Source: Arthrobacter sp. TMP15
GTDB taxonomy: Bacteria; Actinomycetota; Actinomycetes; Actinomycetales; Micrococcaceae
NCBI RefSeq assembly: GCF_039529835.1
Contig: NZ_CP154262.1
Location: 2,170,001-2,234,000 of the forward strand
DNA: 64,000 bases
Direction: 5' to 3'
Each line of letters opens with the position of its first letter. Position 1 is the first letter of the stretch. Of this stretch, positions 9,351 to 31,052 are shown piece by piece. A program made the translations under genes and the position numbers. The notes beneath the pieces are model-generated. The model searched no databases and had not been told where the DNA came from. It saw only the letters and a program-made list of their open reading frames with translations.

Positions 9351-10562
9351 GGTTCTTGCGGTGATTGCAACACTTAGTGAATGAGTGTTGCTATGGCGAA
9401 CTATTCAATCCTTTTCCGGCCGGATCTATTGCAGGTCTTTTGGGCAGGGATGCAGGCAGGTGATTTCATCACTGATGCCGTTATTCCGATCAATACCAGT
9501 AGGCGTACCGGGCGCACTGTTCTGGCTAACGCTGGTGGTGTGCGGCCCCGCCGCGGCAGGAATTTAAAGGGCCGTTGCCTGACCTTCACTCAGCGTGAAG
9601 AGATCGCGATTCTCCGTGCCCAGGGACGGTCCTTGAGAGCGATTGGGGAGGTTATTGGCCGGTCTGCCTCGACGGTATCCAGGGAGTTGAGACGCAACAC
9701 GAAACCCGGCACCGCCTACCGGGCAACCTCGGCCCACATGCTCGCCTACGAGCGTGCCAGCCGGCCGAAACCGGCCAAACTCCACACGAACATAGCCCTG
9801 CGTACAGTGGTGGAAGCGGACCTTGCCAAGAAGTATTCACCGGAACAAATCGCAGGACGATTACGCGTCCAGTTCCCCAACGAAGAGGAGATGCGGGTGT
9901 CACCGGAGACTATTTACCAGTCCCTGTACGTCCAGTCCAGGGGCGCCTTGAATCGGGATCTGGTCGCGTGTTTACGCACTGGGCGGGCCGTGCGGCGCCC
10001 CTCCCGCAAGACCGGGCAGCGTAAGAATCGGATCCCGGGAATGATCAATATTTCCCATCGCCCACCCGAAGTGGAAGACCGTGCCGTGCCAGGACATTGG
10101 GAAGGGGATTTGATCATTGGCAAGGGTAACCAGACCGCTATTGGGACCCTGGTGGAACGCAACACCAACTACACGATGCTCGTTCACTTACCCCAGGGGT
10201 ACAAAGCTGAGCAGATGCGGGAGGCATTGACCGCAAAGATCAAAACACTCCCGCAAGCACTGCGACATTCCCTGACCTGGGATCAAGGCATTGAAATGCA
10301 GGACTGGAAAACCGTGAAGATTGATACGGGCATCGAGATCTACTTTTGCGACCCGCATTCGCCCTGGCAGCGTGGTATCAACGAGAACACAAATGGACTG
10401 CTGCGCCAGTATTTCCCCAAAGGCACTGATTTGAGCATCCACAGTGCCCAGGATCTTGACTGGGTCGCCGCTGAACTCAACGACAGACCACGCAAACGAC
10501 TAGAGTTCAAGAAACCGATCGAACTGATCGAACCCCTCCTGTTGCAATGACCGCCAGAATCC
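9351..10562 (+). mobile_element. IS30-family insertion sequence
   Basis: A 1.2-kb element with one transposase gene. The ends are imperfect inverted repeats of about 22 bp: left GGTTCTTGCGGTGATTGCAA (from 9351), right TGTTGCAATGACCGCCAGAA (10540-10559), each extending a little further. In inverse orientation they match at about 20 of 23 positions. I could not define a target-site duplication. The insertion lies 360 bp outside the tRNA boundary. The coding region is intact, so the element may still be mobile. Confidence 0.75.
9381..10550 (+). CDS. IS30-family transposase
   Basis: A full-length 389-residue DDE transposase. Residues 64-105 form the helix-turn-helix region (LTFTQREEIAILRAQG, then IGRSASTVSRELRRN), typical of IS30. 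The catalytic core follows with Asp243 in GHWEGDLI, Asp301 in LTWDQGIEM and Glu335 in RGINENTNGLLRQY. It would bind the terminal repeats and move the element by copy-out or circle intermediates, as known for the family. The annotated ATG is at 9381; a second ATG at 9393 would also serve. The start region forms a short GCAACACT/AGTGTTGC hairpin, which may limit translation. Confidence 0.93.
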   Translation: MSVAMANYSILFRPDLLQVFWAGMQAGDFITDAVIPINTSRRTGRTVLANAGGVRPRRGRNLKGRCLTFTQREEIAILRAQGRSLRAIGEVIGRSASTVSRELRRNTKPGTAYRATSAHMLAYERASRPKPAKLHTNIALRTVVEADLAKKYSPEQIAGRLRVQFPNEEEMRVSPETIYQSLYVQSRGALNRDLVACLRTGRAVRRPSRKTGQRKNRIPGMINISHRPPEVEDRAVPGHWEGDLIIGKGNQTAIGTLVERNTNYTMLVHLPQGYKAEQMREALTAKIKTLPQALRHSLTWDQGIEMQDWKTVKIDTGIEIYFCDPHSPWQRGINENTNGLLRQYFPKGTDLSIHSAQDLDWVAAELNDRPRKRLEFKKPIELIEPLLLQ

Positions 10563-19494: not shown

Positions 19495-20733
19495 ATGACC
19501 AAGAGCACGGAGCATAATGCTCCTACCAGCGCACAGCTTGATGCCGACGATGTACTGGCCGCATACCGCGATCACTTTACTGAACCCAACGATGACTCCG
19601 TCGTCGCCTATCTGGACGGCAACTCCCTGGGCCGGCCTTTACGTGTCACAGCTACAAACCTTGCTGCTTTTGTCCAAGGAGACTGGGGTACCGGTCTGAT
19701 CAGATCGTGGGATAAAAAGTGGATGCAGGAACCCACCCGTGTTGGCGACCGGCTCGGTGAAGTTGTACTGGGCGCCGCTCCAGGGCAAACCTTGATCGGG
19801 GATTCAACTTCCGTACTGCTTTACAAGTTATTGCGTGCCGGCTTGGACGCTCAGCAGGGTCGTAACCAGATCGTCATCGACAGAGATAACTTTCCTACCG
19901 ACCGGTTCATAGTGGAGGGCATCGCCGCTGAACGCGACGCGGAGATCGTATGGATAGATCCTGACCCCGCCACCGGTGTCACACCTGAAGATGTCAGTGC
20001 CGTAGTTGGGTCGGGAACCGCCGTGGTGCTACTGAGCCATGTTGCCTACCGTTCCGGTTTTCTAGCAGACGCTCAAGCCATCACTGGAATTGTCAAGGAC
20101 GCCGGCGGGCTGATGATGTGGGATCTTAGCCATTCCGTGGGCTCCGTCCCACTAGAACTTGATGCTTGGGGTGTGGACCTTGCTGTGGGTTGCACCTACA
20201 AATACCTCAACGGCGGCCCCGGGGCACCCGCGCTGGCTTACATCAATAGCTCCATAATCTCCCAGCTACAACAGCCGATCTGGGGATGGATGGGTGCAGC
20301 CGATCCTTTCGGCATGACTGCCACCTTTGAGCCCGCAGCCAACGTGCGGCGATTCATTACGGGCACTCCCCCGATCCTCGCCATGCAACCTCTCAAGGAT
20401 ATGACCGAGCTGATCGCCGAAGTCGGAATGGTCGCCATCAGAGAAAAATCGATCGCTCTCACCGAGTATGCCATTGCAGTGGCGGATGAACTACTTGCAC
20501 CGCTCGGCGTTGAACTAGCCAGCCCTCGAGACGCGTCGCAACGTGGATCCCATGTGAGCGTGAACCACCCACGTTTTGCAGATCTCACAGCTCGGCTTTG
20601 GGAGCAGGGAGTAATTCCAGACTTCCGTCCACCTCAGGGACTGCGCATTGGTCTCTCGCCGCTAAGTACTAGCTTTGCCGAAGTGCAGCTGGGCATCGAG
20701 GCAATCCGCGATGCGTTGGTATCTCTGGCGTGA
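19495..20733 (+). CDS. kynU: Kynureninase
   Basis: A 412-residue PLP enzyme of aminotransferase fold type I, cleaving L-kynurenine to anthranilate and alanine. YLDGNSLGRPL at the N-terminus, ISHVAYRSG-like LSHVAYRSGFLADAQ, the WDLSHSVGSVP aspartate region and the PLP-lysine motif VGCTYKYLNGGPGAPA are all present; GSHVSVNHP near the end is also typical. GAAGGA lies about 10 bases before the ATG. It overlaps the next gene by 4 bases (GTGA), so expression is coupled with the regulator. No kynurenine monooxygenase is seen, so the route is the anthranilate branch. Confidence 0.95.
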   Translation: MTKSTEHNAPTSAQLDADDVLAAYRDHFTEPNDDSVVAYLDGNSLGRPLRVTATNLAAFVQGDWGTGLIRSWDKKWMQEPTRVGDRLGEVVLGAAPGQTLIGDSTSVLLYKLLRAGLDAQQGRNQIVIDRDNFPTDRFIVEGIAAERDAEIVWIDPDPATGVTPEDVSAVVGSGTAVVLLSHVAYRSGFLADAQAITGIVKDAGGLMMWDLSHSVGSVPLELDAWGVDLAVGCTYKYLNGGPGAPALAYINSSIISQLQQPIWGWMGAADPFGMTATFEPAANVRRFITGTPPILAMQPLKDMTELIAEVGMVAIREKSIALTEYAIAVADELLAPLGVELASPRDASQRGSHVSVNHPRFADLTARLWEQGVIPDFRPPQGLRIGLSPLSTSFAEVQLGIEAIRDALVSLA

Positions 20734-21578
20734 CGGCGGTTCTGGATGACATGGTTTCAAGACCCGGAAGCACCACTTCCCTCTTGCGAACCATTATAGG
20801 TTTGTATTTAAGGGATGAGGGCGGATGGATGTCATCCGCTTCTCTAGTGGAACTAATGCAGGCTATGGCGATCCCGGCCTCCCTAACACGTACTGCCCTA
20901 ACGCGACTACGTAGAAAAGACGTGGTGGTTGCGGCGGTCCGTGATGGGGTGGCTGGGTATGAGGTGGATTCACGTGCGGCACGCATGCTGGAGCGTGGAG
21001 ACCGGCGCATCCAAACTCCTAGGTCCATGGAAGCTGCGGATCCGTGGTGTCTGGTCTCTTTTTCGCTACCCGAGACCGAACGCGAGCGCCGTCATCAGTT
21101 ACGCCGGCAATTGCATTGGATCGGGTGTGGAATGGTCTCCCCTGGCCTATGGGTAGCTCCGGATTATCTCCGTGAAGAAGTACAGGAAATTCTTGACTCT
21201 TTGGGGCTAGGCGACCGGAGCGTGCTGTTCACTACCTCGCGGCCACACGTTACGGGGGACCTGCGCGAGGTTGTTTCTAGCTGGTGGGACTTTGACGCGA
21301 TTGGAACCTTGTACGTGGACTTCATAAAGTTCCATGAAGAAGTCCCCACAGAACCAGTCGGTGTAAGCCCGCAGACATTTGCCACCTATGTTAACTTGAT
21401 TGACCGATGGCGCATGATCCCTTATCTCGACCCAGGGTTGCCGGTAGACTGTCTTCCTGCCGATTGGCCTGGCAAACAGGGCGTTGCCATATTCCGCAAG
21501 ATCAGCACTTCCCATGCCTTGGCCAGCAAATCATTCGTTGGATCAGTAGTCAGTTCACACTCGAGCCGAACGCTCTAG
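20730..21578 (+). CDS. PaaX family transcriptional regulator
   Basis: A 282-residue regulator. The N-terminal winged helix (SSASLVELMQAMAIPASLTRTALTRLRRKDVV) and the central PaaX domain (WCLVSFSLPETERERRHQLRRQLHWIGCGMVSPGLWVAP) match phenylacetyl-CoA-responsive repressors. Here it overlaps kynU by 4 bases and is not near phenylacetate genes, so it probably regulates tryptophan degradation with a kynurenine-pathway or aryl-CoA ligand; this is an inference. The last 25 residues are less conserved. Confidence 0.85.
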   Translation: MTAVLDDMVSRPGSTTSLLRTIIGLYLRDEGGWMSSASLVELMQAMAIPASLTRTALTRLRRKDVVVAAVRDGVAGYEVDSRAARMLERGDRRIQTPRSMEAADPWCLVSFSLPETERERRHQLRRQLHWIGCGMVSPGLWVAPDYLREEVQEILDSLGLGDRSVLFTTSRPHVTGDLREVVSSWWDFDAIGTLYVDFIKFHEEVPTEPVGVSPQTFATYVNLIDRWRMIPYLDPGLPVDCLPADWPGKQGVAIFRKISTSHALASKSFVGSVVSSHSSRTL

Positions 21579-21606
21579 AACCAGCAAGATGGCGGCCAAG
21601 GCAGGG

Positions 21607-22344
21607 TCATCGCTGCTGCATCCACTGCACGGTGTGCTGCCAATGTGCAGCCGCCGGATCTATTGCAGCCATATGGTCTAGCCCCGGAATCTTCTGGAAA
21701 TCAACAAGGTCTCCGGCGGCTACTGCAGCTTTAACAAAGTCCTCCGAGTGTTCTACCGGGACCCACACATCAACATCACCATGGACTACAAGAATAGGGC
21801 GCTCAAGTGGCATCTGGCGGATCGGTGAAGCTAGATCGTAGGCATCAGACAGGTCAGCATAGTGTCCACCCATGAAGCCGGAGGCAGCGTTATCATCGAG
21901 CTCCTCGGCGTCGACGCGCCGCACATCAGTCACCGGGGCTAGACCCACCACGGCGTCGGCGAGATCGGCGACAAGTAGTGCCAGCTGACCTCCCACGGAA
22001 TGGCCCACATTGACCACGGGACAGTTAGCACACCACTGCGGGCGAGCGTCCTTGGCACATTGGATTGCACTGCGAACGTCGTCGAGGGTGAGCGGCCATC
22101 CTCCCCCGTTACCTACACTTCGGTATTCGATATTTGCTACTGCCCAGCCGCGGGCCAGCAGATCGCGTACAAGGGGATGCATGAGCGTGGCATCCCACAT
22201 TGCTCGCCAGTACCCACCATGGATCAGGATGGCGTAACCTTTCGGGGTTTCGATTTCTGGCGCCCACAGCTCAATATACTGCGGATCCATTTTCCCGTAC
22301 CGCACTATCTCCGGCTCGAGGACTGCTGCGAAGTGATTCGCCAT
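21607..22344 (-). CDS. Alpha/beta hydrolase, kynurenine formamidase-like
   Basis: A 245-residue serine hydrolase. HGGYWR near residue 40 is the oxyanion-hole motif of arylformamidases, and the nucleophile elbow is GHSVGGQLALL; Asp in VVHGDVDVWVP and His in PGLDHMAAIDP complete the triad. Ending convergently 28 bp from the PaaX-type gene, it supplies the missing step between KynA and KynU, N-formylkynurenine to kynurenine. It belongs to the alpha/beta-hydrolase type, not the metal-dependent KynB type. ATG at 22344 or TTG at 22350 (better spaced from GGAAAG) could be used. The specific substrate is inferred from motif plus context. Confidence 0.75.
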   Translation of the reverse strand: MANHFAAVLEPEIVRYGKMDPQYIELWAPEIETPKGYAILIHGGYWRAMWDATLMHPLVRDLLARGWAVANIEYRSVGNGGGWPLTLDDVRSAIQCAKDARPQWCANCPVVNVGHSVGGQLALLVADLADAVVGLAPVTDVRRVDAEELDDNAASGFMGGHYADLSDAYDLASPIRQMPLERPILVVHGDVDVWVPVEHSEDFVKAAVAAGDLVDFQKIPGLDHMAAIDPAAAHWQHTVQWMQQR

Positions 22345-22541
22345 GGTCAATTCGTCTTTCCATTAATTGGCTGCGGCACGGAGCGTTCATGCAAGTCGTT
22401 CATTCAAGTGCAGGTCTGCTCTTTGCCTGATAGTGTGAGCCCTAGAGTACTGAGCATACTGGGTGGGCCTCACAGCTACCAACGAAAAAATGGCTCCGGT
22501 ATATAGCCTTGAAAGTCCACCATTGAACTAAGATTGCCTTA

Positions 22542-22607
22542 ACGGCGATGGATCCCGCCGGGACCGTGTTCGGTCCGAACTGCCGTTGTGGCTGATGGTT
22601 TCCTGCC
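22542..22607 (+). promoter_or_regulatory. Fluoride riboswitch (crcB motif) for the MFS gene
   Basis: The sequence has the conserved order of the fluoride aptamer: GGCGATGGATCCCGCCGG (22544-22561), a perfect hairpin GGACCG-TGTT-CGGTCC (22561-22576), the CGAACTGCCG segment (22576-22585), and GGCTGATGGTTTCCTGCC (22590-22607). It is nearly identical in layout to the second copy at 27673-27737. After it, CCCG-ATTCA-CGGG and GTTTC/GAAAC pairing can cover the ribosome site GGTGGGAG, so fluoride probably controls translation start of the ATG at 22631. Confidence 0.9.
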
Positions 22608-22630
22608 CCGATTCACGGGTGGGAGAAACC

Positions 22631-23962
22631 ATGTGCCAAACACCTGCAGATCACAACGGTGCAGAGGATTCGCCCGTCACGGGCGCCGAACACTCTCCGG
22701 ATCCCGTCAAGGACGCTCCAGCGCCAGCTGACCCATTCGAACAAGTAGCGGCACCGTCTACACAATGGCTGAATACAGGCATTCTTGGGATTGGTGCAGC
22801 ATCCTTTTTTAGCGATTCGGGTCACGAGCTCGTCACATCCTTGTTACCGTCCTTCCTAAGTTCAACCCTGCACAGCGGACCGGCGGCGCTGGGAGCTATA
22901 GAAGGTGTCTCCGATGCCTTAGTAGGCCTGAGCAAATTGGCTGGCGGTCCGCTGTCCAACGATCCAGCCCAACGCAGCAAAGTAGCAGCGAGTGGATATT
23001 TACTGACAGCCGTTGCGACGGCGCTTATCGGAGTGTGCACGGCCGTATGGCAAGTTGCCGGTTTCCGAACGTTGGCGTGGGCGGCACGCGGGCTGCGCTC
23101 GCCATCCCGGGACACTTTGTTGGTTTCAATTACACCCCGCAAGGCCTATGGACGAGCAGCCGGGATTGAACGTGCAGGGGATAACGCTGGAGCAGTTGTG
23201 GGCCCGCTGCTTGCGGCTGCTTTGGTGGGCGCGCTTGGCATTAGAACTGCGATTCTCTTCTCATTTATCCCCAGCATGTTTGCCGCCGGAGCAATAGTCG
23301 TGGCTGCGCGGCAGGCACGCCTATTTGTGGCCAGACCAGAAGTGAAGCGATCACTGAGTTTTAACTTGGCTGGATTGCGACTCTCAGGGTTGTTTACGGT
23401 ACTCGTTCCGGTGTCATTTTTTGAATTGGGCAATCTTGCAGCGACGCTGCTAATTCTTCGCGCCACGACGGTTTTAGAAGCCGGTGGTGTGGCAGCCGGA
23501 GCGGCTGTGACGAGTGCTATTCTCATGTATTCAGGCCACAACGCATCGGCCTCTGTTGCGGCTCTTGTTGGTGGCCGACTGATAGATCGGCTGAGTCCTC
23601 GCCTTGTTTTCACGCTCGGCACGGCCATGTATGTGGCCGCCTATCTACTCTTTGCCATTGACAGTGGGGGTCCAGTGATCTTGGTAGCGGGTTTTTTCTT
23701 GGCAGGTTTCGGTATCGGTTTCGCGGAGACCTCCGAGCAAACAGCCGTGGCATTATTACTTCCGGACCGGCTGCGAGGCAACGGATACGGTCTCTTGGGG
23801 CTGGTGCAGTCTTTTGGTGACTTAGGCGCCACCGTGGTGGCCGGAATCCTGTGGGCAGTGTTCTCACCAACCGTGGCTTTTCTCTATGCAGCTTTCTGGA
23901 TGGTTGGCGCTCTTGTCTCATCCCCGTCATTATCGCTGCAAAGGGTAGCCAAGAAACGTTGA
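22631..23962 (+). CDS. MFS transporter under fluoride control
   Basis: A 443-residue major-facilitator protein with an about 50-residue Pro/Glu-rich cytoplasmic N-terminus and roughly 11-12 helices from residue 52 on. Landmarks are FFSDSGHELVTSLLPSFL in the first helix, the RGLRSPSRDTLLVSITP loop and GFGIGFAETSEQTAVALLL late in the protein, the last also seen in MFS groups of unknown substrate. The ATG at 22631 follows GGGAG; the longer frame would begin with a TTG inside the riboswitch. Control by a fluoride aptamer implies a role in fluoride tolerance, either export or a consequence of fluoride stress. The substrate is not known. Confidence 0.85.
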   Translation: MCQTPADHNGAEDSPVTGAEHSPDPVKDAPAPADPFEQVAAPSTQWLNTGILGIGAASFFSDSGHELVTSLLPSFLSSTLHSGPAALGAIEGVSDALVGLSKLAGGPLSNDPAQRSKVAASGYLLTAVATALIGVCTAVWQVAGFRTLAWAARGLRSPSRDTLLVSITPRKAYGRAAGIERAGDNAGAVVGPLLAAALVGALGIRTAILFSFIPSMFAAGAIVVAARQARLFVARPEVKRSLSFNLAGLRLSGLFTVLVPVSFFELGNLAATLLILRATTVLEAGGVAAGAAVTSAILMYSGHNASASVAALVGGRLIDRLSPRLVFTLGTAMYVAAYLLFAIDSGGPVILVAGFFLAGFGIGFAETSEQTAVALLLPDRLRGNGYGLLGLVQSFGDLGATVVAGILWAVFSPTVAFLYAAFWMVGALVSSPSLSLQRVAKKR

Positions 23963-24108
23963 TTTTCCAGCCTCGGTGGGGTTTGAGCCGTGTGCATGGT
24001 GGCCAGTGACAAAGAACCTTACGAATCATGGCGAGTGGACCTTTTCCATACCCGCAGCACGTCTAGGTCCGCTGCTGCAAGACGGATTCGAGGCCTGTCC
24101 AGCCGTGG

Positions 24109-24477
24109 TCAGAGGCTGCCTCCCAAGATCAAACCGGAAATTGCCGCCCCAACACTCAAAACGAGTGTGCCAAGACCACTGATTAGGGCGAAGCCGACCC
24201 TGCCAGTCTGGAAAAGTCTGACCGTTTCGAAACTGGCTGTGCTGAACGTGGTGTAACCACCCAAAAACCCGACGCCCAAAACTTTTACTAGTTCCGGGCT
24301 AGCCTGGTGAGCCATAACCAGCCCCGTCAAAAGCCCTAAAACGAGTGAGCCGGTGATATTGATGAGCATTGTCCCTATGGGTAAAGCTGTCCGGAGGCGG
24401 GAGCGCAGCAATCCGTCCAGTATGAATCTGGTGCCGGCACCCAGTCCGCCGGCAACCGCAAGTAGCACAATGGTCAT
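24109..24477 (-). CDS. crcB: Fluoride channel CrcB/Fluc (second copy)
   Basis: A 122-residue membrane protein with four helices. Fluc motifs are GGLGAGTRFILDG (the conserved GTxxR), NITGSLVLGLLTG (channel Asn) and GFLGGYTTFSTASFE (the Phe-box and central Na+ site region). Fluc works as an antiparallel dual-topology dimer; adjacent paired genes often form heterodimers. The ATG overlaps the stop of the first copy (ATGA). Last gene of the riboswitch-controlled operon; it ends about 150 bp from the convergent MFS gene. Confidence 0.95.
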   Translation of the reverse strand: MTIVLLAVAGGLGAGTRFILDGLLRSRLRTALPIGTMLINITGSLVLGLLTGLVMAHQASPELVKVLGVGFLGGYTTFSTASFETVRLFQTGRVGFALISGLGTLVLSVGAAISGLILGGSL

Positions 24478-25025
24478 GGTAGATCCCCCTCCATCTGCGG
24501 CCCTAACCGCGTGTTCTTGGCTCGAGTCGCTGCAATGCGGTGGTGACGGCCGGCGGCCCAGATGCCAAGCGCTGTGGCGAGTACCCCACCGATGATGGTG
24601 AGGGACAAATACAACAGCATGGTGGGGATCCTGTTGGTTTCGATAAACAGTCCGGCCTCCAAAGCGAGGGTGCTGTAAGTGGTGAAAGCACCCATAAAAC
24701 CAGTGCCGGCCACCAAACGGATAATCCGCCGTCGTCCAGCGTCTTGGCCACGCCGCCCTAAACCCTCTAACAGTGCCCCCAACGCAAAGGCTCCCACAAG
24801 ATTCACGCACAACGTTGGTAGTGGCCAGCCACTCACTGAAGGCACTGCTTCTTCAATTCCATAGCGGGCGAGTGTACCCAGCATCCCGCCCACAACCACT
24901 AGAGCCACATATCCGGGATGCAGGTGGATAGATCGGTGAGCCGAAGAGGGCCCCAAAGTATCCACGTCACTGTCTACCGGTAATGTCCCTGCCTTACGGA
25001 AAATTTTCGCAGTCATCCCGTTCAT
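24474..25025 (-). CDS. crcB: Fluoride channel CrcB/Fluc (first copy)
   Basis: A 183-residue version with an about 45-residue hydrophilic N-terminal extension before the four-helix Fluc core (GGMLGTLARYGIEEA, CVNLVGAFALGALL, GTGFMGAFTTYSTLALE). The extension is unusual for the family, whose members are about 110-130 residues. The ATG at 25025 overlaps the UspA stop (ATGA). Together with the next gene it probably forms a heterodimeric fluoride-specific channel that lets fluoride leave the cytoplasm. Confidence 0.93.
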   Translation of the reverse strand: MNGMTAKIFRKAGTLPVDSDVDTLGPSSAHRSIHLHPGYVALVVVGGMLGTLARYGIEEAVPSVSGWPLPTLCVNLVGAFALGALLEGLGRRGQDAGRRRIIRLVAGTGFMGAFTTYSTLALEAGLFIETNRIPTMLLYLSLTIIGGVLATALGIWAAGRHHRIAATRAKNTRLGPQMEGDLP

Positions 25026-25543
25026 TCCGCGCCTGCCAACGGACGCGGGTTCAAGGGCACCACCAGTACCGGCTTGTGCTGCCGGTGGGCCAAGTGGACA
25101 GCAACTGAACCGCTCAATAATTCTTCCAGCCTGTGAGATATTCCGCGTTCGCGAGTACCAACAACAATCATGGACGCATCCACTGTCTTGGCTAGACGTC
25201 CCAGCGCCCGCGCAGGATCCCCCGCTAGGCATCGGTAGCTCCAGCTGATCCCGTACGGGGTAAGGACCGATGCCAGCCGCTCTTTTATTGCGGCCGAAAT
25301 ACGCTCAATGTCATCATCGAACCTGTCAGGATCAATGGGCTGGGTTGCAACATGGCCGTTGGGGTCTTCCTCCACCACGTACGTGGTGATGTCCACATAG
25401 GCGCAGAGGAGCTCGACCCCCAAACTGTAAGCCAGTTCCGCGGCTTGTTTCGCGACGCTCAGCGGCTGCCCTGGGATAACCCCCATCACCACGGGGCGGG
25501 TAATCCGGTAGTTCATCTGGAGGGACTCTTTTGGCTCACTCAT
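25022..25543 (-). CDS. Universal stress protein (UspA family)
   Basis: A 173-residue single-domain Usp. The N-terminal strand VVMGVIPGQPLS and the ATP-type site IVVGTRERGISHRLEELLSGSVAVHLAHRQHKPVLVVP (G-2x-G-9x-G(S/T) pattern) are visible. The start overlaps the enolase stop (ATGA) and the stop overlaps crcB. UspA genes are among those known to be linked to fluoride riboswitches. Its exact action is unknown; it may bind ATP and protect during fluoride-induced energy stress. Confidence 0.9.
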   Translation of the reverse strand: MSEPKESLQMNYRITRPVVMGVIPGQPLSVAKQAAELAYSLGVELLCAYVDITTYVVEEDPNGHVATQPIDPDRFDDDIERISAAIKERLASVLTPYGISWSYRCLAGDPARALGRLAKTVDASMIVVGTRERGISHRLEELLSGSVAVHLAHRQHKPVLVVPLNPRPLAGAE

Positions 25544-26835
25544 GATGTGCCCCTATCTTTTGAGAACTTCTCCACCAGGCCGTAGGGCAAAGCGGGAAAT
25601 GCATCCGCGATTTCAAGCAGTCGATTATATTTGGCCACCCTCTCACCACGGGCTGGTGCACCGGACTTGAGCTGTCCGCAGCCGGAGCCAACTGCCAGAT
25701 CCGCTACAAAAGTATCTTCTGTCTCCCCAGAACGATGTGAGACCATGGCGGTAAACCCACCCTGCTCGGCGATAGTCAGGGTGTCTAAGGTTTCTGTGAC
25801 CGTACCTATCTGGTTGGGTTTGATCAGCACAGAATTAGCAGCCGCCTCCTGGATACCTTTCCGGACCCGGTCAGGGTTGGTGACGAACAGGTCATCTCCA
25901 ACGACCTGAACGCGGCTGCCCAACAACGCCGTAAGTTCAGGCCAGCCGTAGGGGTCATCCTCGGCCAGAGGGTCTTCAAGGCTGCGGATCGGATAATCCG
26001 AAATGAGCCCCTCATAGTACTTAGTCAGCTGTGAGGGGTTATACGAGCGCCCGTTCAGGTCGTAGCTGCCCTCATGATAGAAGTAGTTCGCGGCCGGATC
26101 CAAGGCGATAGTCACTCCGCTGGGGCCCGTGACGTACCCTGCATCTGTGATGGCGGCAGTGATCAATTCCAGTGCCTCCTCCGGCCGGGAGATTTCCGGG
26201 GCGTAGCCTCCCTCATCCCCGAGCCCGGTGGAGAGGCCCTTCTGCCGCAGTGTCAGGCCCAGTGCATGGTAAATTTCTGAACCCCACCGGATGGCCTCGG
26301 GCAGGGTAGGGGCGCCGGTGGGGGCGATCATGAATTCTTGGAAAGCTAGTGGGTTCGCAGCATGGGCGCCACCATTGAGAACGTTAAAGTGCGGGACTGG
26401 TAACCTTTCCGGCTGACCAAGAGAGTTTCCGATCCAAGCATGCAGTTCTTGACCTGAGAAGGTAGCGAAGGCACGCGCAGAGGCCATGGATACAGCCACG
26501 ACGGCGTTGGCGCCCAGCCGGGACTTATCCGCCGTCCCATCCAACTCACACAATGCCGTGTCCACACTTCGTTGGCTGGGCCAGGTCCGAGAAAGCAAAA
26601 GTTCCCGTATAGATGTGTTAATTCCAGCAACAGCGGTTTCCACGCCTCGACCTGAATACAGGCTGCCGCTGTCACGCAATTCAACTGCTTCGTGAGCTCC
26701 GGTGGATGCTCCCGATGGTGCAGACGCCGTTTCCCATGTTCCATTACTAGAGGTCAGCCTCACGCGCAGGGTTGGGTATCCGCGCGAATCTAGGATCTGA
26801 AAAGCATGGACGTCGGTGAAGGTCAATTCATTCAC
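25540..26835 (-). CDS. eno: Enolase, fluoride-operon copy
   Basis: A 431-residue enolase (2-phosphoglycerate to phosphoenolpyruvate and water). All key elements are present: mobile loop SGASTGAHEAVELRD, HFNVLNGGAHAANPLAFQEF (catalytic Glu), GDEGG (catalytic Glu), metal ligands in ALDPAA, LEDPLAEDD and VGDDLFV, LIKPNQIGT (catalytic Lys), SHRSGETED and QLKSGAPARGERVAKYN. Sequence is more divergent than housekeeping actinobacterial enolases usually are. Enolase is the classical fluoride target, and the gene lies in the riboswitch operon with phosphoglycerate mutase and CrcB, so it is probably an inducible backup. GTG start, GGAG upstream. Confidence 0.95.
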   Translation of the reverse strand: MNELTFTDVHAFQILDSRGYPTLRVRLTSSNGTWETASAPSGASTGAHEAVELRDSGSLYSGRGVETAVAGINTSIRELLLSRTWPSQRSVDTALCELDGTADKSRLGANAVVAVSMASARAFATFSGQELHAWIGNSLGQPERLPVPHFNVLNGGAHAANPLAFQEFMIAPTGAPTLPEAIRWGSEIYHALGLTLRQKGLSTGLGDEGGYAPEISRPEEALELITAAITDAGYVTGPSGVTIALDPAANYFYHEGSYDLNGRSYNPSQLTKYYEGLISDYPIRSLEDPLAEDDPYGWPELTALLGSRVQVVGDDLFVTNPDRVRKGIQEAAANSVLIKPNQIGTVTETLDTLTIAEQGGFTAMVSHRSGETEDTFVADLAVGSGCGQLKSGAPARGERVAKYNRLLEIADAFPALPYGLVEKFSKDRGTS

Positions 26836-26891
26836 GGTGGTAGCTCCAGTCAGTGGTGATGGGTAAGAAAAAGTGGAAAAATTCGTGACGT

Positions 26892-27647
26892 TTATGTACC
26901 TCCATTGGCGGTGAGCGCCGCTACGGCTTGAGCGGCTGCACCAGGGTCGAGGTAAGTCCCGGCCCGGGGAAACGGAATAACTCCAGGGCGGAAACGGTAT
27001 GCCAGCGGATGGGCCGTGGGCAGGTTTAGGTCCTCGACCTCAGCTTCACTAAGAGAGTCAATGATCAGGCACAAAGCACGCAAGGAATTGCCATGACCCA
27101 CTATCAGGACGTCGGTTCCCACATGCAGTAGGGGCCGGACGGTCTCATGCCAGAAGCTCTGCAGCCGTGTCACCACGGCGTGGAGTGACTCGGTGGGGCG
27201 AGTTGTCCCTTGCGGCATGGCAGTAACTGCCCTGTTGCTGCCAATCGCGGCCAGCTGGCGAGGTGTCATCGGAGGCGGGGCACCGTAGAGGGACCGGCGC
27301 CACGAATGAAGCACCTGAGGCCCGTCGTGGGCCAAGAGCTCGCTTTTGCACAGCCCGGTCAATGCTCCGTAACTGCGTTCGTTGAGTTCCCAGACTTCCT
27401 GGATGGGAACGGTCCCTGCCGTCAAAATCTCGTTGACCAGCTGCGCTGTCTCCAGGGCACGTGACATTGCGGATGAAAATATGCACTCTGGAATGAAAGC
27501 GGCATCAGCGAGGGACTCGGCAGCACGCCGGCTTTCCCTGCGACCTTGAGAAGTCAGAGGCGGGTCGAGCAGTCCGGTGAACCGTCCCTGTGCGTTGAGG
27601 GTACTTTGGCCATGACGCAAAAGGATCAGGGTACCTAGCTCGGACAT
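26892..27647 (-). CDS. gpmA: 2,3-bisphosphoglycerate-dependent phosphoglycerate mutase, fluoride-operon copy
   Basis: A 251-residue histidine-phosphatase-fold enzyme interconverting 3- and 2-phosphoglycerate. Seen are LLRHGQSTLNAQGRFTGLLDPPLT (phosphohistidine), ELNERSYGALTG (Glu acid/base), TRPTESL and IVGHGNSLRALC (second His). It is the first gene of the operon, 9 bases after a ribosome site held in the riboswitch hairpin, and precedes enolase by 56 bp. Pairing this step with enolase in one fluoride-induced unit keeps lower glycolysis flowing when fluoride blocks it. The C-terminus carries about 25 extra residues (PGAAAQAVAALTANGG). Confidence 0.93.
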   Translation of the reverse strand: MSELGTLILLRHGQSTLNAQGRFTGLLDPPLTSQGRRESRRAAESLADAAFIPECIFSSAMSRALETAQLVNEILTAGTVPIQEVWELNERSYGALTGLCKSELLAHDGPQVLHSWRRSLYGAPPPMTPRQLAAIGSNRAVTAMPQGTTRPTESLHAVVTRLQSFWHETVRPLLHVGTDVLIVGHGNSLRALCLIIDSLSEAEVEDLNLPTAHPLAYRFRPGVIPFPRAGTYLDPGAAAQAVAALTANGGT

Positions 27648-27653
27648 AACTCA

Positions 27654-27678
27654 CCTACCTTTGAAGAGCAAAGGTAGG
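27654..27678 (-). promoter_or_regulatory. Expression-platform hairpin covering the ribosome site
   Basis: On the minus strand CCTACCTTT pairs perfectly with AAAGGTAGG over a GCTCTTC loop. The first arm overlaps the end of the aptamer; the second contains the ribosome-binding site (AAGGTAGG) 6 bases before the gpmA ATG. Fluoride binding would hold the first arm in the aptamer and free the ribosome site. The mechanism is inferred from the exclusive pairing. Confidence 0.7.
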
Positions 27679-27737
27679 AACCATCAGCCAAACGGCGGTT
27701 CGAACTGCTAAGCAATTCCGGCGGGATCCATCGCCAT
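27673..27737 (-). promoter_or_regulatory. Fluoride riboswitch (crcB motif) for the gpmA-eno-usp-crcB-crcB operon
   Basis: On the minus strand the aptamer reads GGCGATGGATCCCGCCGG, a small AATTGC-TTA-GCAGTT hairpin, CGAACCGCCG and GGCTGATGGTTCCTACC. Conserved positions match the copy at 22542-22607 almost base for base while the variable stem differs, which is good evidence for both. Confidence 0.93.
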
Positions 27738-27828
27738 AACTAACCATAGCGCGACTCGTGCAACTAGCACCAGCTATGCTCACTTACCGGCTCCAGAAGG
27801 AGCCATCAAATTCGGTGTCCAGTGGACA

Positions 27829-27972
27829 TTAGAGTCTCATAAAATGCCTCAAGAGAAGAAAGGCGCCGATCCCCACAGCAGCGCCAACTACCAGAATGGA
27901 ACTTGTCAGTGGCTGCCCGGCTGCGGCCAGCATCGGCGCCAGCACGGTCAGTATCACGCCAAAAATGCCCAT
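27829..27972 (-). CDS. Small two-helix membrane protein
   Basis: A 47-residue ORF (start at 27972, with GGAAG 9 bases upstream; an ATG at 27981 is an alternative). It reads GIFGVILTVLAPMLAAAG, a short turn, then a second hydrophobic segment SILVVGAAVGIGAFLLL and a basic end RHFMRL: two membrane helices with positive-inside charge. It lies on the same strand just upstream of the fluoride riboswitch, so it is transcribed separately. Unknown family; the hydrophobic pattern supports a real gene. Confidence 0.45.
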   Translation of the reverse strand: MGIFGVILTVLAPMLAAAGQPLTSSILVVGAAVGIGAFLLLRHFMRL

Positions 27973-27981
27973 CACTAACAT

Positions 27982-28415
27982 CTTCCGTCTGTATATTTCG
28001 TTTAATATCTCGTGAAAGTAACTTTATTTTTCATGCTAAATTGGGCACTCATAAGAGATTTCCCCACCAGAAAAGTACATAGTTTGCGCCGCAAAAATAA
28101 CAGAATAAACTTACAGCCGCAACATGCTATTTAAGGACAAAATCGAGTTCCAGAGGGTGGATATTTCATACCTAACCCCACTGAACATGCACGCTTTGGG
28201 GATCAGAGCCGAAACCTACTGTTTCTTATTACAGGTATTGACCAAGTCTCCGCATGCAGAATGCTTGTTGAATATGGCCAAAAGATAGTATCAGAAATCC
28301 ATTTTTTGGCCGAAAGGTCAACTAAAATTTGGGCCGATCAGCGGGTCACGGTACTACGCTGAGGCACCTGATCAAATTCTCTGATAGCCCTGCCATGACA
28401 AGATGGAGAAAACAC
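27982..28415. other. AT-rich intergenic stretch
   Basis: About 430 bases, notably AT-rich between 28000 and 28320 compared with the flanks. I see no gene or clear repeat. It must hold promoters for the outward-facing small membrane protein and for the gene at 28416. Confidence 0.4.
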
Positions 28416-28823
28416 GTGAGTACTCGTAAAAATTTTTCTGCACCACGGATTATTCCGGCAACTTTTGCGGTTTTAGCAATAGTCAGCGGCCTGGTATTTC
28501 CTCGCATTGACGTTCTCTACCTACTGGGGCATGTGTTAGCACTTATCTGTGCGGTGGCTGTGCCACTTAGCTATGCGTGGCTCTCACGAAACTTTCAACC
28601 TAAAGGGAACATGGTCCGCCGGTTCTTCCTGATCTGTCTCGGTAGTTTGGCCGTAGTCTCAGCATCTGCCAGCCTGGTTTTAATTTCCATGGGAAGCAGT
28701 ACCGGCGCTTCAGGCGATATTGGTGGCATATTCCTGTGGATACTTGCCACGGCCACACTGTTGATTCTTTCCGTGGCAACAGCGGTTGTTGGGCCACAGA
28801 AGTCTGCTCTCCCAGAGCAGTAA
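28416..28823 (+). CDS. Hypothetical four-helix membrane protein
   Basis: A 135-residue protein with four hydrophobic segments (about 11-28, 33-55, 68-90, 101-125) and basic ends. The GTG at 28416 is chosen because GGAG lies 7 bases before it; the open frame extends further upstream without membrane character or ribosome site. No recognised family. It is 93 bp upstream of the helicase gene but has its own ribosome site; co-transcription is possible. Confidence 0.6.
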   Translation: MSTRKNFSAPRIIPATFAVLAIVSGLVFPRIDVLYLLGHVLALICAVAVPLSYAWLSRNFQPKGNMVRRFFLICLGSLAVVSASASLVLISMGSSTGASGDIGGIFLWILATATLLILSVATAVVGPQKSALPEQ

Positions 28824-28916
28824 ATAGTTTAGAAGGTTGAAAGGTTCCGCTAGGAGGAATATTTTTCCAGAACGTGGCGTTAACTCGGAGCGACGACAGT
28901 ACTACGTATCGAAAGA

Positions 28917-31052
28917 GTGCCAGTGCCCCTGAATAACGTGACCACATATGTTATCGAAGACGCCGCTGCAGAGGTCAGCGGATCAGCAGAGGAGCAGCTC
29001 ATCCTCAACGAAGCATTCAAGCGGCGCGACGGAATACTTCAGTACCTCCATACCGAACTTCAATTCCCGGCCCAGGACACAGTGGCCCAGGCACGGTTGC
29101 GCATGCTCGCACGTCGCCGCGCTGAACTACAACACGCAGGGCAAGGACTGATCTTTGGTCGACTCGACTCGTTGGATCACACAGTCCGTCATCTGGGACG
29201 CGTGGGTATACCGAGCTCCGACGATGACGATGATCCTCTAGTCATTGACTGGCGCGCACCGGCCGCACGCGCCTTCTACACTGCTACACCCGTGGACCCA
29301 CAAGGCCAGGCGCGCCGTCGGCATATAAGAACCAACGGGCGTGAGGTGATCGGCGTAGACGACGAGCCACTTGATGGCTCGAGAGCCAGTGAACTAGTTG
29401 GTGAGGGCGCGCTGCTGGCCGCGCTCGATGAGCGGCGGACAGGCCAGATGAGTACTGCCGCAGCAACCTTGCAGCGCGAACAGGACGATGTGATTCGTGC
29501 TGACGCGCGTGGTCCGTTGGTTGTCCAAGGCGGCCCCGGGACAGGGAAAACAGTAGTGGCACTTCACCGAGTTGCCTATCTACTTTTCACTTATCCCAAA
29601 CTTGCCGCACAGGGCGTGTTAGTCATTGGACCATCACGCCGCTTCTTGGACTATATTGCCCAGGTTTTGCCGGCACTGGGGGAAACCGCAATGGCCTCAG
29701 CCACCTGCGACACCCTGGTACCTGGCATTGAGGTGGAGCGCGTTGAGCAGCGCGAAGTAGCAGAGATCAAGGGCCGGGCACTCTGGCAACAGGCACTCAC
29801 GCGGTATTGTGGATCGTTTGTGCCAGAGCCTGCCGACCTGGAGCTACTGTGGGAAGGTGAGCGCTACACAATAGATGAGGGACGAATCGCACGAGCGATC
29901 CGCTCAGCAACCTCGGGGCGTTCCTACCATGCGGCACGGGCAGTCTTCATAGCGCAGGTTCACGATTTACTCACCGACGCAATAATCGAACGCAACGAAG
30001 AAACGCTGAGACAAGTGGAAGCTGGCCTTGAAGACCTGCTCAGCGAATTCGATGCCGCATTCACTCACACCGATAATCGCGCCGCCACTAGCGGCGCAAC
30101 CGGGGCCGAAGTTGACGGGGTACTGACAGAAGCAGACATCGAACTACTGCGGGATAGGATCGCTGACGATGCCAGTCTGCGTGCTGTGCTGTACCGATGG
30201 TGGCCGAGCCGCGATACTGCCGTGGAGCTACACCGGTTCCTAGGAGAAACAACATTGCTCTCTCAGTGGGTGCCTGAGCTGACTGCTCGCCAACGAACGG
30301 CAATCGTCGGCGAACCGCAAACCTGGGCAAGTAGCGACATACCCCTCTTCGATGCTTTGGCTGATTTACTGGGCGAGACACACCCAAAGAGCGAACAAGG
30401 CGAATTCTTATCCGATCGAGCACCCGCACAACGAGACTGGGTTTACGGACACGTGGTCATCGACGAAGCGCAAGAACTTTCACAAATGCAGTGGTTCATG
30501 GTCATGCGCCGCTGCCCATCTCGTTCTATTACAGCTGTTGGCGACATCGACCAAGCGGAGGCCCCTCATCTGCACACAACATGGGCAGAAGCTGTCAGCG
30601 GAGCCTTCGGTGAACGATGGACCGAAGCGCAACTCACTATTTGTTACCGCACCCCGATGGAAGTCATGGCGCTCACAGCATCAGTGCTGCGCAATGCCGG
30701 CAGCCATAACGACCCCCCTCGCGCGGTTCGAACTTCTGGCATTGAACCGTGGGAACGCACCGTGACCGAGGAGAGTCTAAACGCCGAAGCTGCACTCGCC
30801 GTGGAGCAACTATCCACCCGGTGGAAAGGCGGGATGGTCGGTGTCATCGCTCCCCTCGAACGCCTCTACACTTTGCGAACAGCTTTGCCGGGAACACCAG
30901 TTCTTTCCGCAACGGATGCCAAAGGTCTGGAATGGGATGCCACGTTACTTGTGGACGCCCCAAGCATTGCAGCCCAGCCTCGAGGATGGAACGGACTCTA
31001 TGTAGCTCTCACCCGTTGCACCCAAGAGTTGGGGCAGCTCCTGGTGAAATAG
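28917..31052 (+). CDS. HelD-type UvrD/Rep-like helicase (class II)
   Basis: A 711-residue SF1 ATPase. An N-terminal coiled-coil-like arm (residues about 20-80: EEQLILNEAFKRRDGILQYL) and the DWRAPAARAFYTATP block precede Walker A GGPGTGKT (205-212); Walker B is VVIDEAQELS, and GLEWDATLLVDAP and LYVALTRCTQELGQLLV are late motifs. HelD proteins bind RNA polymerase and free stalled complexes; actinobacterial class II members (HelR) can displace rifampicin. The GTG start has no strong ribosome site. I found no palindromic rifamycin-associated element upstream. It ends 9 bp from a convergent SDR gene. Confidence 0.88.
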   Translation: MPVPLNNVTTYVIEDAAAEVSGSAEEQLILNEAFKRRDGILQYLHTELQFPAQDTVAQARLRMLARRRAELQHAGQGLIFGRLDSLDHTVRHLGRVGIPSSDDDDDPLVIDWRAPAARAFYTATPVDPQGQARRRHIRTNGREVIGVDDEPLDGSRASELVGEGALLAALDERRTGQMSTAAATLQREQDDVIRADARGPLVVQGGPGTGKTVVALHRVAYLLFTYPKLAAQGVLVIGPSRRFLDYIAQVLPALGETAMASATCDTLVPGIEVERVEQREVAEIKGRALWQQALTRYCGSFVPEPADLELLWEGERYTIDEGRIARAIRSATSGRSYHAARAVFIAQVHDLLTDAIIERNEETLRQVEAGLEDLLSEFDAAFTHTDNRAATSGATGAEVDGVLTEADIELLRDRIADDASLRAVLYRWWPSRDTAVELHRFLGETTLLSQWVPELTARQRTAIVGEPQTWASSDIPLFDALADLLGETHPKSEQGEFLSDRAPAQRDWVYGHVVIDEAQELSQMQWFMVMRRCPSRSITAVGDIDQAEAPHLHTTWAEAVSGAFGERWTEAQLTICYRTPMEVMALTASVLRNAGSHNDPPRAVRTSGIEPWERTVTEESLNAEAALAVEQLSTRWKGGMVGVIAPLERLYTLRTALPGTPVLSATDAKGLEWDATLLVDAPSIAAQPRGWNGLYVALTRCTQELGQLLVK

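Follow-up and report, generated by a model that had tools for sequence, protein, structure and literature searches.

A probable fluoride-inducible resistance island with two facing riboswitches and an MFS transporter in Arthrobacter sp. TMP15

We analyzed a 64,000-nucleotide stretch of Arthrobacter sp. TMP15 (contig NZ_CP154262.1, positions 2,170,001–2,234,000; hereafter the window, numbered from its first letter) within the 3.72-Mb genome of this Arthrobacter-type actinomycete (G000). Two fluoride riboswitch aptamers, oriented toward each other about 5.06 kb apart, enclose six genes. Genes for phosphoglycerate mutase (pgm), enolase (eno), a universal stress protein (usp), and two CrcB/Fluc subunits follow the right switch on the minus strand, and a gene for a major facilitator superfamily (MFS) transporter follows the left switch on the plus strand, with 146 bases between the 3' ends of the two units. 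From sequence, we read the block as a fluoride-inducible resistance island that was most likely acquired, and put the probability of this reading at about 0.83. An earlier sequence-only reading, made without database searches, had already recognized export, a copy of the target enzyme, and a second transporter as one module, and our analysis agrees.

The same reading had described two facing crcB-motif aptamers 5 kb apart with a common core and different stems, which the covariance model bore out. The right aptamer (27668..27744, read from 27744 to 27668 on the minus strand) scored 45.7 bits against RF01734 with an E-value of 1.9e-9 over the whole window, passing the gathering score of 34. The left aptamer (22535..22612, plus strand) scored 29.9 bits, with an E-value of 2.3e-5 in a search of 4227 families over 5.7 kb. 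Over the 3.72-Mb genome RF01734 matched 13 places at E up to 10, the window's pair far ahead of the rest, and there was no third convincing match (next best 17.3 bits, E 0.05). Both aptamers carry a perfect 18-nt core, and P2 differs in sequence between them with its pairing kept. An alignment of 28 fluoride riboswitch elements had 24 invariant columns and four P2 pairs with 10, 10, 3, and 7 two-sided changes, the last P2 pair being broken or gapped in nine elements. The left aptamer has an extra U in the 3' strand of its pseudoknot, GGUUUCC where most elements have GGUUCC. This additional base is present in 4/28 elements, of which three lead MFS orthologs of three species (the window's, L052, and L071) and the fourth (L051) leads an uncharacterized gene.

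Behind each aptamer a hairpin is predicted that joins the aptamer 3' strand to the Shine-Dalgarno region, at 22599..22626 (plus strand; −14.4 kcal/mol, z −2.9) for the MFS gene and at 27654..27678 (minus strand; −13.7 kcal/mol, z −4.0) for pgm, with z-scores against dinucleotide shuffles. In 29 elements, omitting that of G019, a genome of the window's species, we folded the interval that runs from the aptamer end up to the start codon. Pairing between the aptamer 3' strand (UCCUACC and variants; CCURYC) and the Shine-Dalgarno region (AGGUAGG) was seen by eye in 25/29 and was absent, partial, or doubtful in L055, L059, L061, and L068. Twenty-four of the 29 folded leaders had z-scores of −1.99 or lower; the L050 leader pairs, yet has a z-score of −0.2. 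No T-run follows the hairpins of the window's two leaders, and on this ground we reject transcription attenuation for these two. Because a hairpin joining the aptamer 3' strand to the Shine-Dalgarno region is common to the family, the simplest reading is that both switches would act as translational on-switches.

Fluoride binding by the aptamer is established for RF01734 generally, and in the solved fluoride aptamer the same 3' strand is also used in the ligand-bound pseudoknot. By analogy, a rise in cytoplasmic fluoride would lead each of the two aptamers to bind fluoride, the 3' strand would be held in the pseudoknot and no longer be free for the Shine-Dalgarno sequence, and translation would start. 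The right switch would then yield a two-subunit Fluc channel for fluoride outflow, the stress protein Usp in a putative role, and a second phosphoglycerate mutase and second enolase, enolase being the classic fluoride target. These second copies would keep lower glycolysis going once fluoride inhibits the housekeeping enolase. The product of the left switch would be an MFS transporter, one of a subfamily often found with fluoride islands.

Pfam and NCBIfam profile matches back the gene identities. The island phosphoglycerate mutase (26892..27647, minus strand) is of the 2,3-bisphosphoglycerate-dependent kind; it passes TIGR01258 (192.5 bits, cut-off 81.7) with narrower equivalog models under their cut-offs, and retains the RHG, NER, and HGNS motifs in an alignment to 1rii. 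The enolase (25540..26835, minus strand) scores 506.4 bits against TIGR01060, over the cut-off of 300, and the Usp (25022..25543, minus strand) matches PF00582 at E 1.7e-13. CrcB subunit 1, with an N-terminal extension (24474..25025, minus strand; E 4.6e-22), and subunit 2 (24109..24477, minus strand; E 2.5e-22) both exceed the Pfam cut-off for PF02537 and match Fluc structures in the PDB. Against the NCBIfam equivalog TIGR00494 (cut-off 80.45), subunit 2 is barely over (80.6) and subunit 1 is under (63.6). The start codons of usp (25543) and the crcB genes (25025 and 24477) were picked by us, and with these starts each eno-usp-crcB-crcB joint overlaps by 4 nt. The sequence-only reading had five overlapping genes here; the identities and these overlaps stand, but pgm and eno are 56 nt apart. 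Subunit 2 reads TTFSTAS and subunit 1 TTYSTLA where solved channels have TTFSTFS; the phenylalanines of this motif are presumably pore residues of Fluc, and the difference between the subunits would fit a heterodimer.

Since the host has a chromosomal enolase 50% identical to the island enzyme, a gpm of its own (38% identical to the island pgm), and another crcB pair elsewhere in its genome, the island appears to be an inducible second set, a target duplication rather than a bypass. A glycolytic bypass, as proposed earlier, is ruled out, as pgm and eno repeat the same reactions with unchanged catalytic residues. The 23 genus genomes searched all contained crcB genes, numbering four in the window's genome, G019, and G005 and two in the other 20.

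The island enolase belongs to a lineage of its own. In a tree, 24 Actinomycetota island rows grouped together with 100/100 support, and 31 chromosomal enolases, among them those of the host and of E. coli, stood outside this clade. Within the island clade, plasmid and chromosomal rows of different families were intermixed. This tree rules out a recent duplication of the host's own eno. Three more island-associated enolases (two from a Burkholderia plasmid, one from L151) fell with the chromosomal side. The separate clade, with changes fixed outside the catalytic residues examined (L349V, T379F, and V164L in 24/24 and N219P in 23/24, E. coli numbering), would be consistent with the island enolase and mutase being retained for lower fluoride sensitivity and not merely as extra copies. 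We think this unlikely, because E168, E209, D246, E290, D317, K342, H370, and K393, which we take to be catalytic and metal-binding residues, were kept in 24/24 island rows, and the available part of a review credits the effect of such enzymes to greater enzyme amount.

The MFS gene (22631..23962, plus strand) encodes 443 amino acids with a PF07690 match at E 3.2e-27. Its start was taken as the ATG at 22631 because a TTG at 22586 sits within the left aptamer. We searched genome contigs by alignment for relatives of the protein, used the best 80 of 260, and examined their neighborhoods within 8 kb, or less at contig ends. At least one of eno, pgm, pyrophosphatase (PPase), crcB, a MutS-like pair, or an uncharacterized gene was found at 41/80 loci and a fluoride riboswitch at 25/80, so that 44/80 were linked by island gene or riboswitch. 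Riboswitches were called with our own model at E up to 1e-3, E-values that are rough, and the elements of L087, L088, L089, L095, and L096 (5/25), or near-identical copies, were in its training set. Island genes occurred in 0/40 random control regions versus 41/80 MFS loci (Fisher p = 5e-10, ignoring kinship among the 80). These 17.2-kb regions, from four family genomes other than those of the 80, serve as a rough null, and none had a riboswitch-model match at or above 24.4 bits, the score of the weakest element counted among the 80.

In the MFS tree of 67 rows (13 dropped), a branch with 100/100 support parts 60 rows, including all 41 linked ones, from seven with none linked; 19 of the 60 were without a fluoride-island neighbor. 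Linkage took 14 gains or losses on this tree against a shuffle mean of 21, with 0/500 shuffles as low. In 11/80 loci a same-strand riboswitch was upstream of the MFS gene and no query gene of the opposite strand intervened; in three of these it directly preceded the MFS gene. The facing layout, riboswitch-(PPase)-MFS versus crcB-crcB-(usp)-eno-(pgm)-riboswitch, was found in L087 (the window's species), L094 (Arthrobacter sp. ISL-72), and L107 (Humibacter albus, of another family). The convergent module is uncommon, as the sequence-only reading held, but not unique, recurring in two further lineages. In L090, L091, L095, and L096 the MFS gene converges on eno with no crcB between. It is quite conceivable, though short of an even chance, that these transporters are a dedicated and unnamed fluoride-response subfamily, mostly of Actinomycetota, and act as a third kind of fluoride exporter or as a valve for phosphate or a phosphorylated metabolite accumulating when enolase and PPase are blocked. 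Another MFS subfamily, with 26% identity to that of the window, also neighbors crcB or usp in fluoride islands, at L065:5778-7160 (−), L079:4549-5775 (−), and L082:7778-8965 (+).

Neighbors and predicted structure bear on the cargo. Same-strand neighbors of the MFS gene within 300 bases were PPase (5), MutS-like (5), enolase (4), histidine phosphatase (3), and pgm (2), with crcB, usp, and DUF190 once each. The AlphaFold2 model (mean pLDDT, a per-residue confidence score, 90.4) has as best PDB matches the oxalate carrier OxlT and the glucose-6-phosphate carrier G6PT, at 16–19% identity, so the fold search matches at superfamily level only. The best NCBIfam match is the phosphoglycerate transporter PgtP (TIGR00881), of the organophosphate:phosphate antiporter (OPA) kind, at 41 bits, far under the cut-off of 407.75. 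A role as an F-/H+ antiporter, which would add a third class of fluoride exporter to Fluc and CLC-F, would accord with riboswitch control and the island linkage, and the acidic residues that are invariant within predicted helices (D62, E66, E180, D184, E265, E366) would be compatible with proton coupling. We nonetheless judge this improbable, given that crcB was already in every genus genome searched and that near same-strand neighbors are mostly enzymes, with crcB seen just once; we also know of no MFS protein that is a fluoride transporter, which counts against it. The alternative, transport of an organic or phosphorylated anion (2- or 3-phosphoglycerate, phosphate, a weak acid) piling up at the enolase block, draws on the neighbor genes, on the anion carriers OxlT and G6PT as top matches of the predicted fold, and on PgtP as best NCBIfam match even far below cut-off. 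It too is doubtful, as the fold identities are low and the unrelated SV2A, NorC, and VMAT2 score nearly equal. OPA carriers hold phosphate by basic residues. The usual neighbors (eno, pgm, PPase, histidine phosphatase) point, with low certainty, to phosphate or a phosphorylated metabolite over fluoride, and we lean toward that cargo.

Riboswitch and island are patchily distributed. A fluoride riboswitch was found in 5/23 genus genomes, including the window's and G019. In the family, 27/295 genomes had a match at E 1e-3 and 22 a match of at least 28 bits, and the weaker matches look like chance. Among these 22, a crcB pair was near the riboswitch in 19, the full pgm-eno-usp-crcB-crcB order, which the sequence-only reading had proposed seeking in other genomes, was present in seven, and an MFS at least 63% identical was encoded, within the stretches examined, in six. 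The block is flanked by kynurenine genes on the left and a HelD-like gene on the right. The same flanks, 74–89% identical, adjoin one slot in G016 and G018, which holds a Hen1-Pnkp RNA-repair pair in place of the island, and no match to island genes was found between the shared flanks there. Compared with the window's genome, these two show presence and absence of the island at a site with conserved flanks. We conclude that the block occupies a variable slot and was more probably gained by the window's species than lost from the others. Plasmids of Arthrobacter, Rhodococcus (with Tn7-like genes), Streptomyces, Micrococcus, Clavibacter, and Burkholderia carry related islands. Because of the patchy presence, the syntenic sites lacking the island, the plasmid-borne relatives, and an enolase clade that does not track hosts, a horizontal origin is likely, as had been suggested from the sequence. 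No integrase was found by Pfam among the six island genes, and no close DNA was found in plasmids at megablast sensitivity. The variable slot, bounded by the kynurenine formamidase gene and the HelD-like gene (window 22350-28917; L201, L202), is a possible integration hot spot. A transposase gene with HTH_38 and rve domains, presumably IS30-like, lies about 12 kb from the island at 9381-10550 (+).

Several observations weigh against the reading of an acquired fluoride island. The G+C content of the block, 0.56–0.58, resembles that of the surrounding sequence, and a search of 20500-29500 gave no direct repeats of at least 16 nt. With neither a composition shift nor flanking repeats, the transfer would be an old one or have used other means than a simple transposon, and recent transposition is ruled out; a loss in the congeners, though less likely, may also account for the pattern in place of a gain. 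The only two crcB genes of G008 are those of its island. The 14 gains or losses mean that the MFS linkage is not of single origin, and one of the 40 control regions (L244) had a riboswitch-model match (E 0.001, 21.8 bits). The left element, though significant, misses the RF01734 gathering score; the covariance-model check suggested earlier gave a hit for both elements, with the right one alone above that score. Finally, 36/80 MFS relatives had neither island gene nor riboswitch nearby; in ten of these, one neighbor each was examined, nine being in families without a known fluoride tie and one without a Pfam match.

The low score and the unlinked relatives would both be expected if the left element had decayed or matched by chance and the MFS gene were an unrelated neighbor. 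This is very improbable. The element is retained before the MFS gene in two other species with MFS 69–70% identical (L052/L088 and L071/L089), the P2 and hairpin stems of those leaders are altered in sequence and still pair, and a same-strand riboswitch precedes other MFS relatives as given above. The counterpart scores 32.2 bits in G019 and 34.2 in G005, and the MFS of Arthrobacter sp. H35-MC1 is 98% identical to the window's. Counterparts in relatives with changed but pairing stems rule out a chance match, and by these comparisons the left element is a genuine variant fluoride riboswitch and not a wreck.

The gene set of the right operon is already known. In the available text of the 2017 report on Enterobacter cloacae FRM, gpmA, eno, uspA, crcB, and ppaC are under one fluoride riboswitch in genomic island GI3 (PMC5533749), and so the links of the riboswitch to eno and pgm had not been reported only singly, as the sequence-only reading supposed. 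As far as that text goes, the systems are alike in having a riboswitch with crcB, gpm, eno, and usp, an island location, and second copies of fluoride-sensitive enzymes, and fluoride induction was seen in FRM (PMC5533749). By the same account, the FRM operon has a PPase and the window's block does not, whereas the window has a pair of CrcB subunits, an MFS gene that would be driven by a second riboswitch facing the first, an enolase of an actinobacterial lineage, and an expression platform read as translational.

Plasmid islands of Rhodococcus qingshengii CX-1 (L079), Arthrobacter sp. ZXY-2 (L080), Streptomyces sp. F8 (L082), Micrococcus luteus (L081), and Clavibacter michiganensis (L085) resemble the window in having eno with crcB, mostly with usp or pgm, and differ in gene order. 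In the Rhodococcus plasmid island, eno overlaps by 4 nt an MFS gene whose product is 56% identical to the window's, and Tn7-like genes adjoin. The core, P1, P2, and P3 of RF01734 are the same in the window, apart from the one extra pseudoknot-strand base of the left element. The 2010 description, in the part available, gives overlapping terminators in many cases (PMC2864571), where the window's platform would instead hide the Shine-Dalgarno sequence. Heterodimeric Fluc channels, such as that of Lactobacillus acidophilus, have two different CrcB subunits in the available text (PMC11139923); those of the window are encoded in adjacent genes and their pairing is putative. The sections available of a review recognize two kinds of fluoride exporter, Fluc and CLC-F, and explain the operon enzymes as extra target.

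In the literature searched, fluoride riboswitch, enolase, and MFS were not found together. A link of fluoride riboswitch to MFS transporter was likewise not found there, allowing for a possible entry in the supplement of the 2012 paper in which Baker and others reportedly proved the fluoride riboswitch. The MFS family link and the facing layout look new.

The riboswitch itself points to a transporter subfamily that lies with glycolytic and phosphate genes in several actinobacterial families, which raises the question of what besides fluoride must cross the membrane for survival under fluoride. Such tolerance genes are needed by strains that produce or break down organofluorines, and the separate enolase lineage is a ready set for asking whether a fluoride-tolerant enolase exists.

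Gene content varies among the islands. The islands of relatives also hold PPase (as in L051 and L094), a MutS-like ATPase pair, histidine phosphatase, or DUF190, none of which was found by Pfam or NCBIfam among the window's six island genes, and the locus is not complete as first described. In Arthrobacter psychrochitiniphilus GP3, the enolase facing the MFS gene is broken into several frames (L050:10280-11469 (−), the same as L095:9397-10483 (−)), so the island decays in some lineages. A pair of proteins with MutS domain V as only Pfam match is often behind its own fluoride riboswitch (L053:5644-8675 (−), L069:5320-8480 (−)); the pair also occurs in L094, L103, L122, and others, and at least one member in 23/80 MFS loci. 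The available text of the 2010 description had linked mutS to the crcB motif (PMC2864571). An uncharacterized family of about 290 amino acids with CxxC-type motifs (L051:9553-10428 (+), L066:6458-7336 (−), L069:4484-5371 (−), L080:7269-8000 (+), L094:13177-13944 (−), and a weak sixth match of 28% in L086) had no Pfam match at E up to 1 in the three members searched. Five fluoride islands have it within riboswitch-led units, in four of them immediately after the fluoride riboswitch, and it is a candidate new fluoride-response protein.

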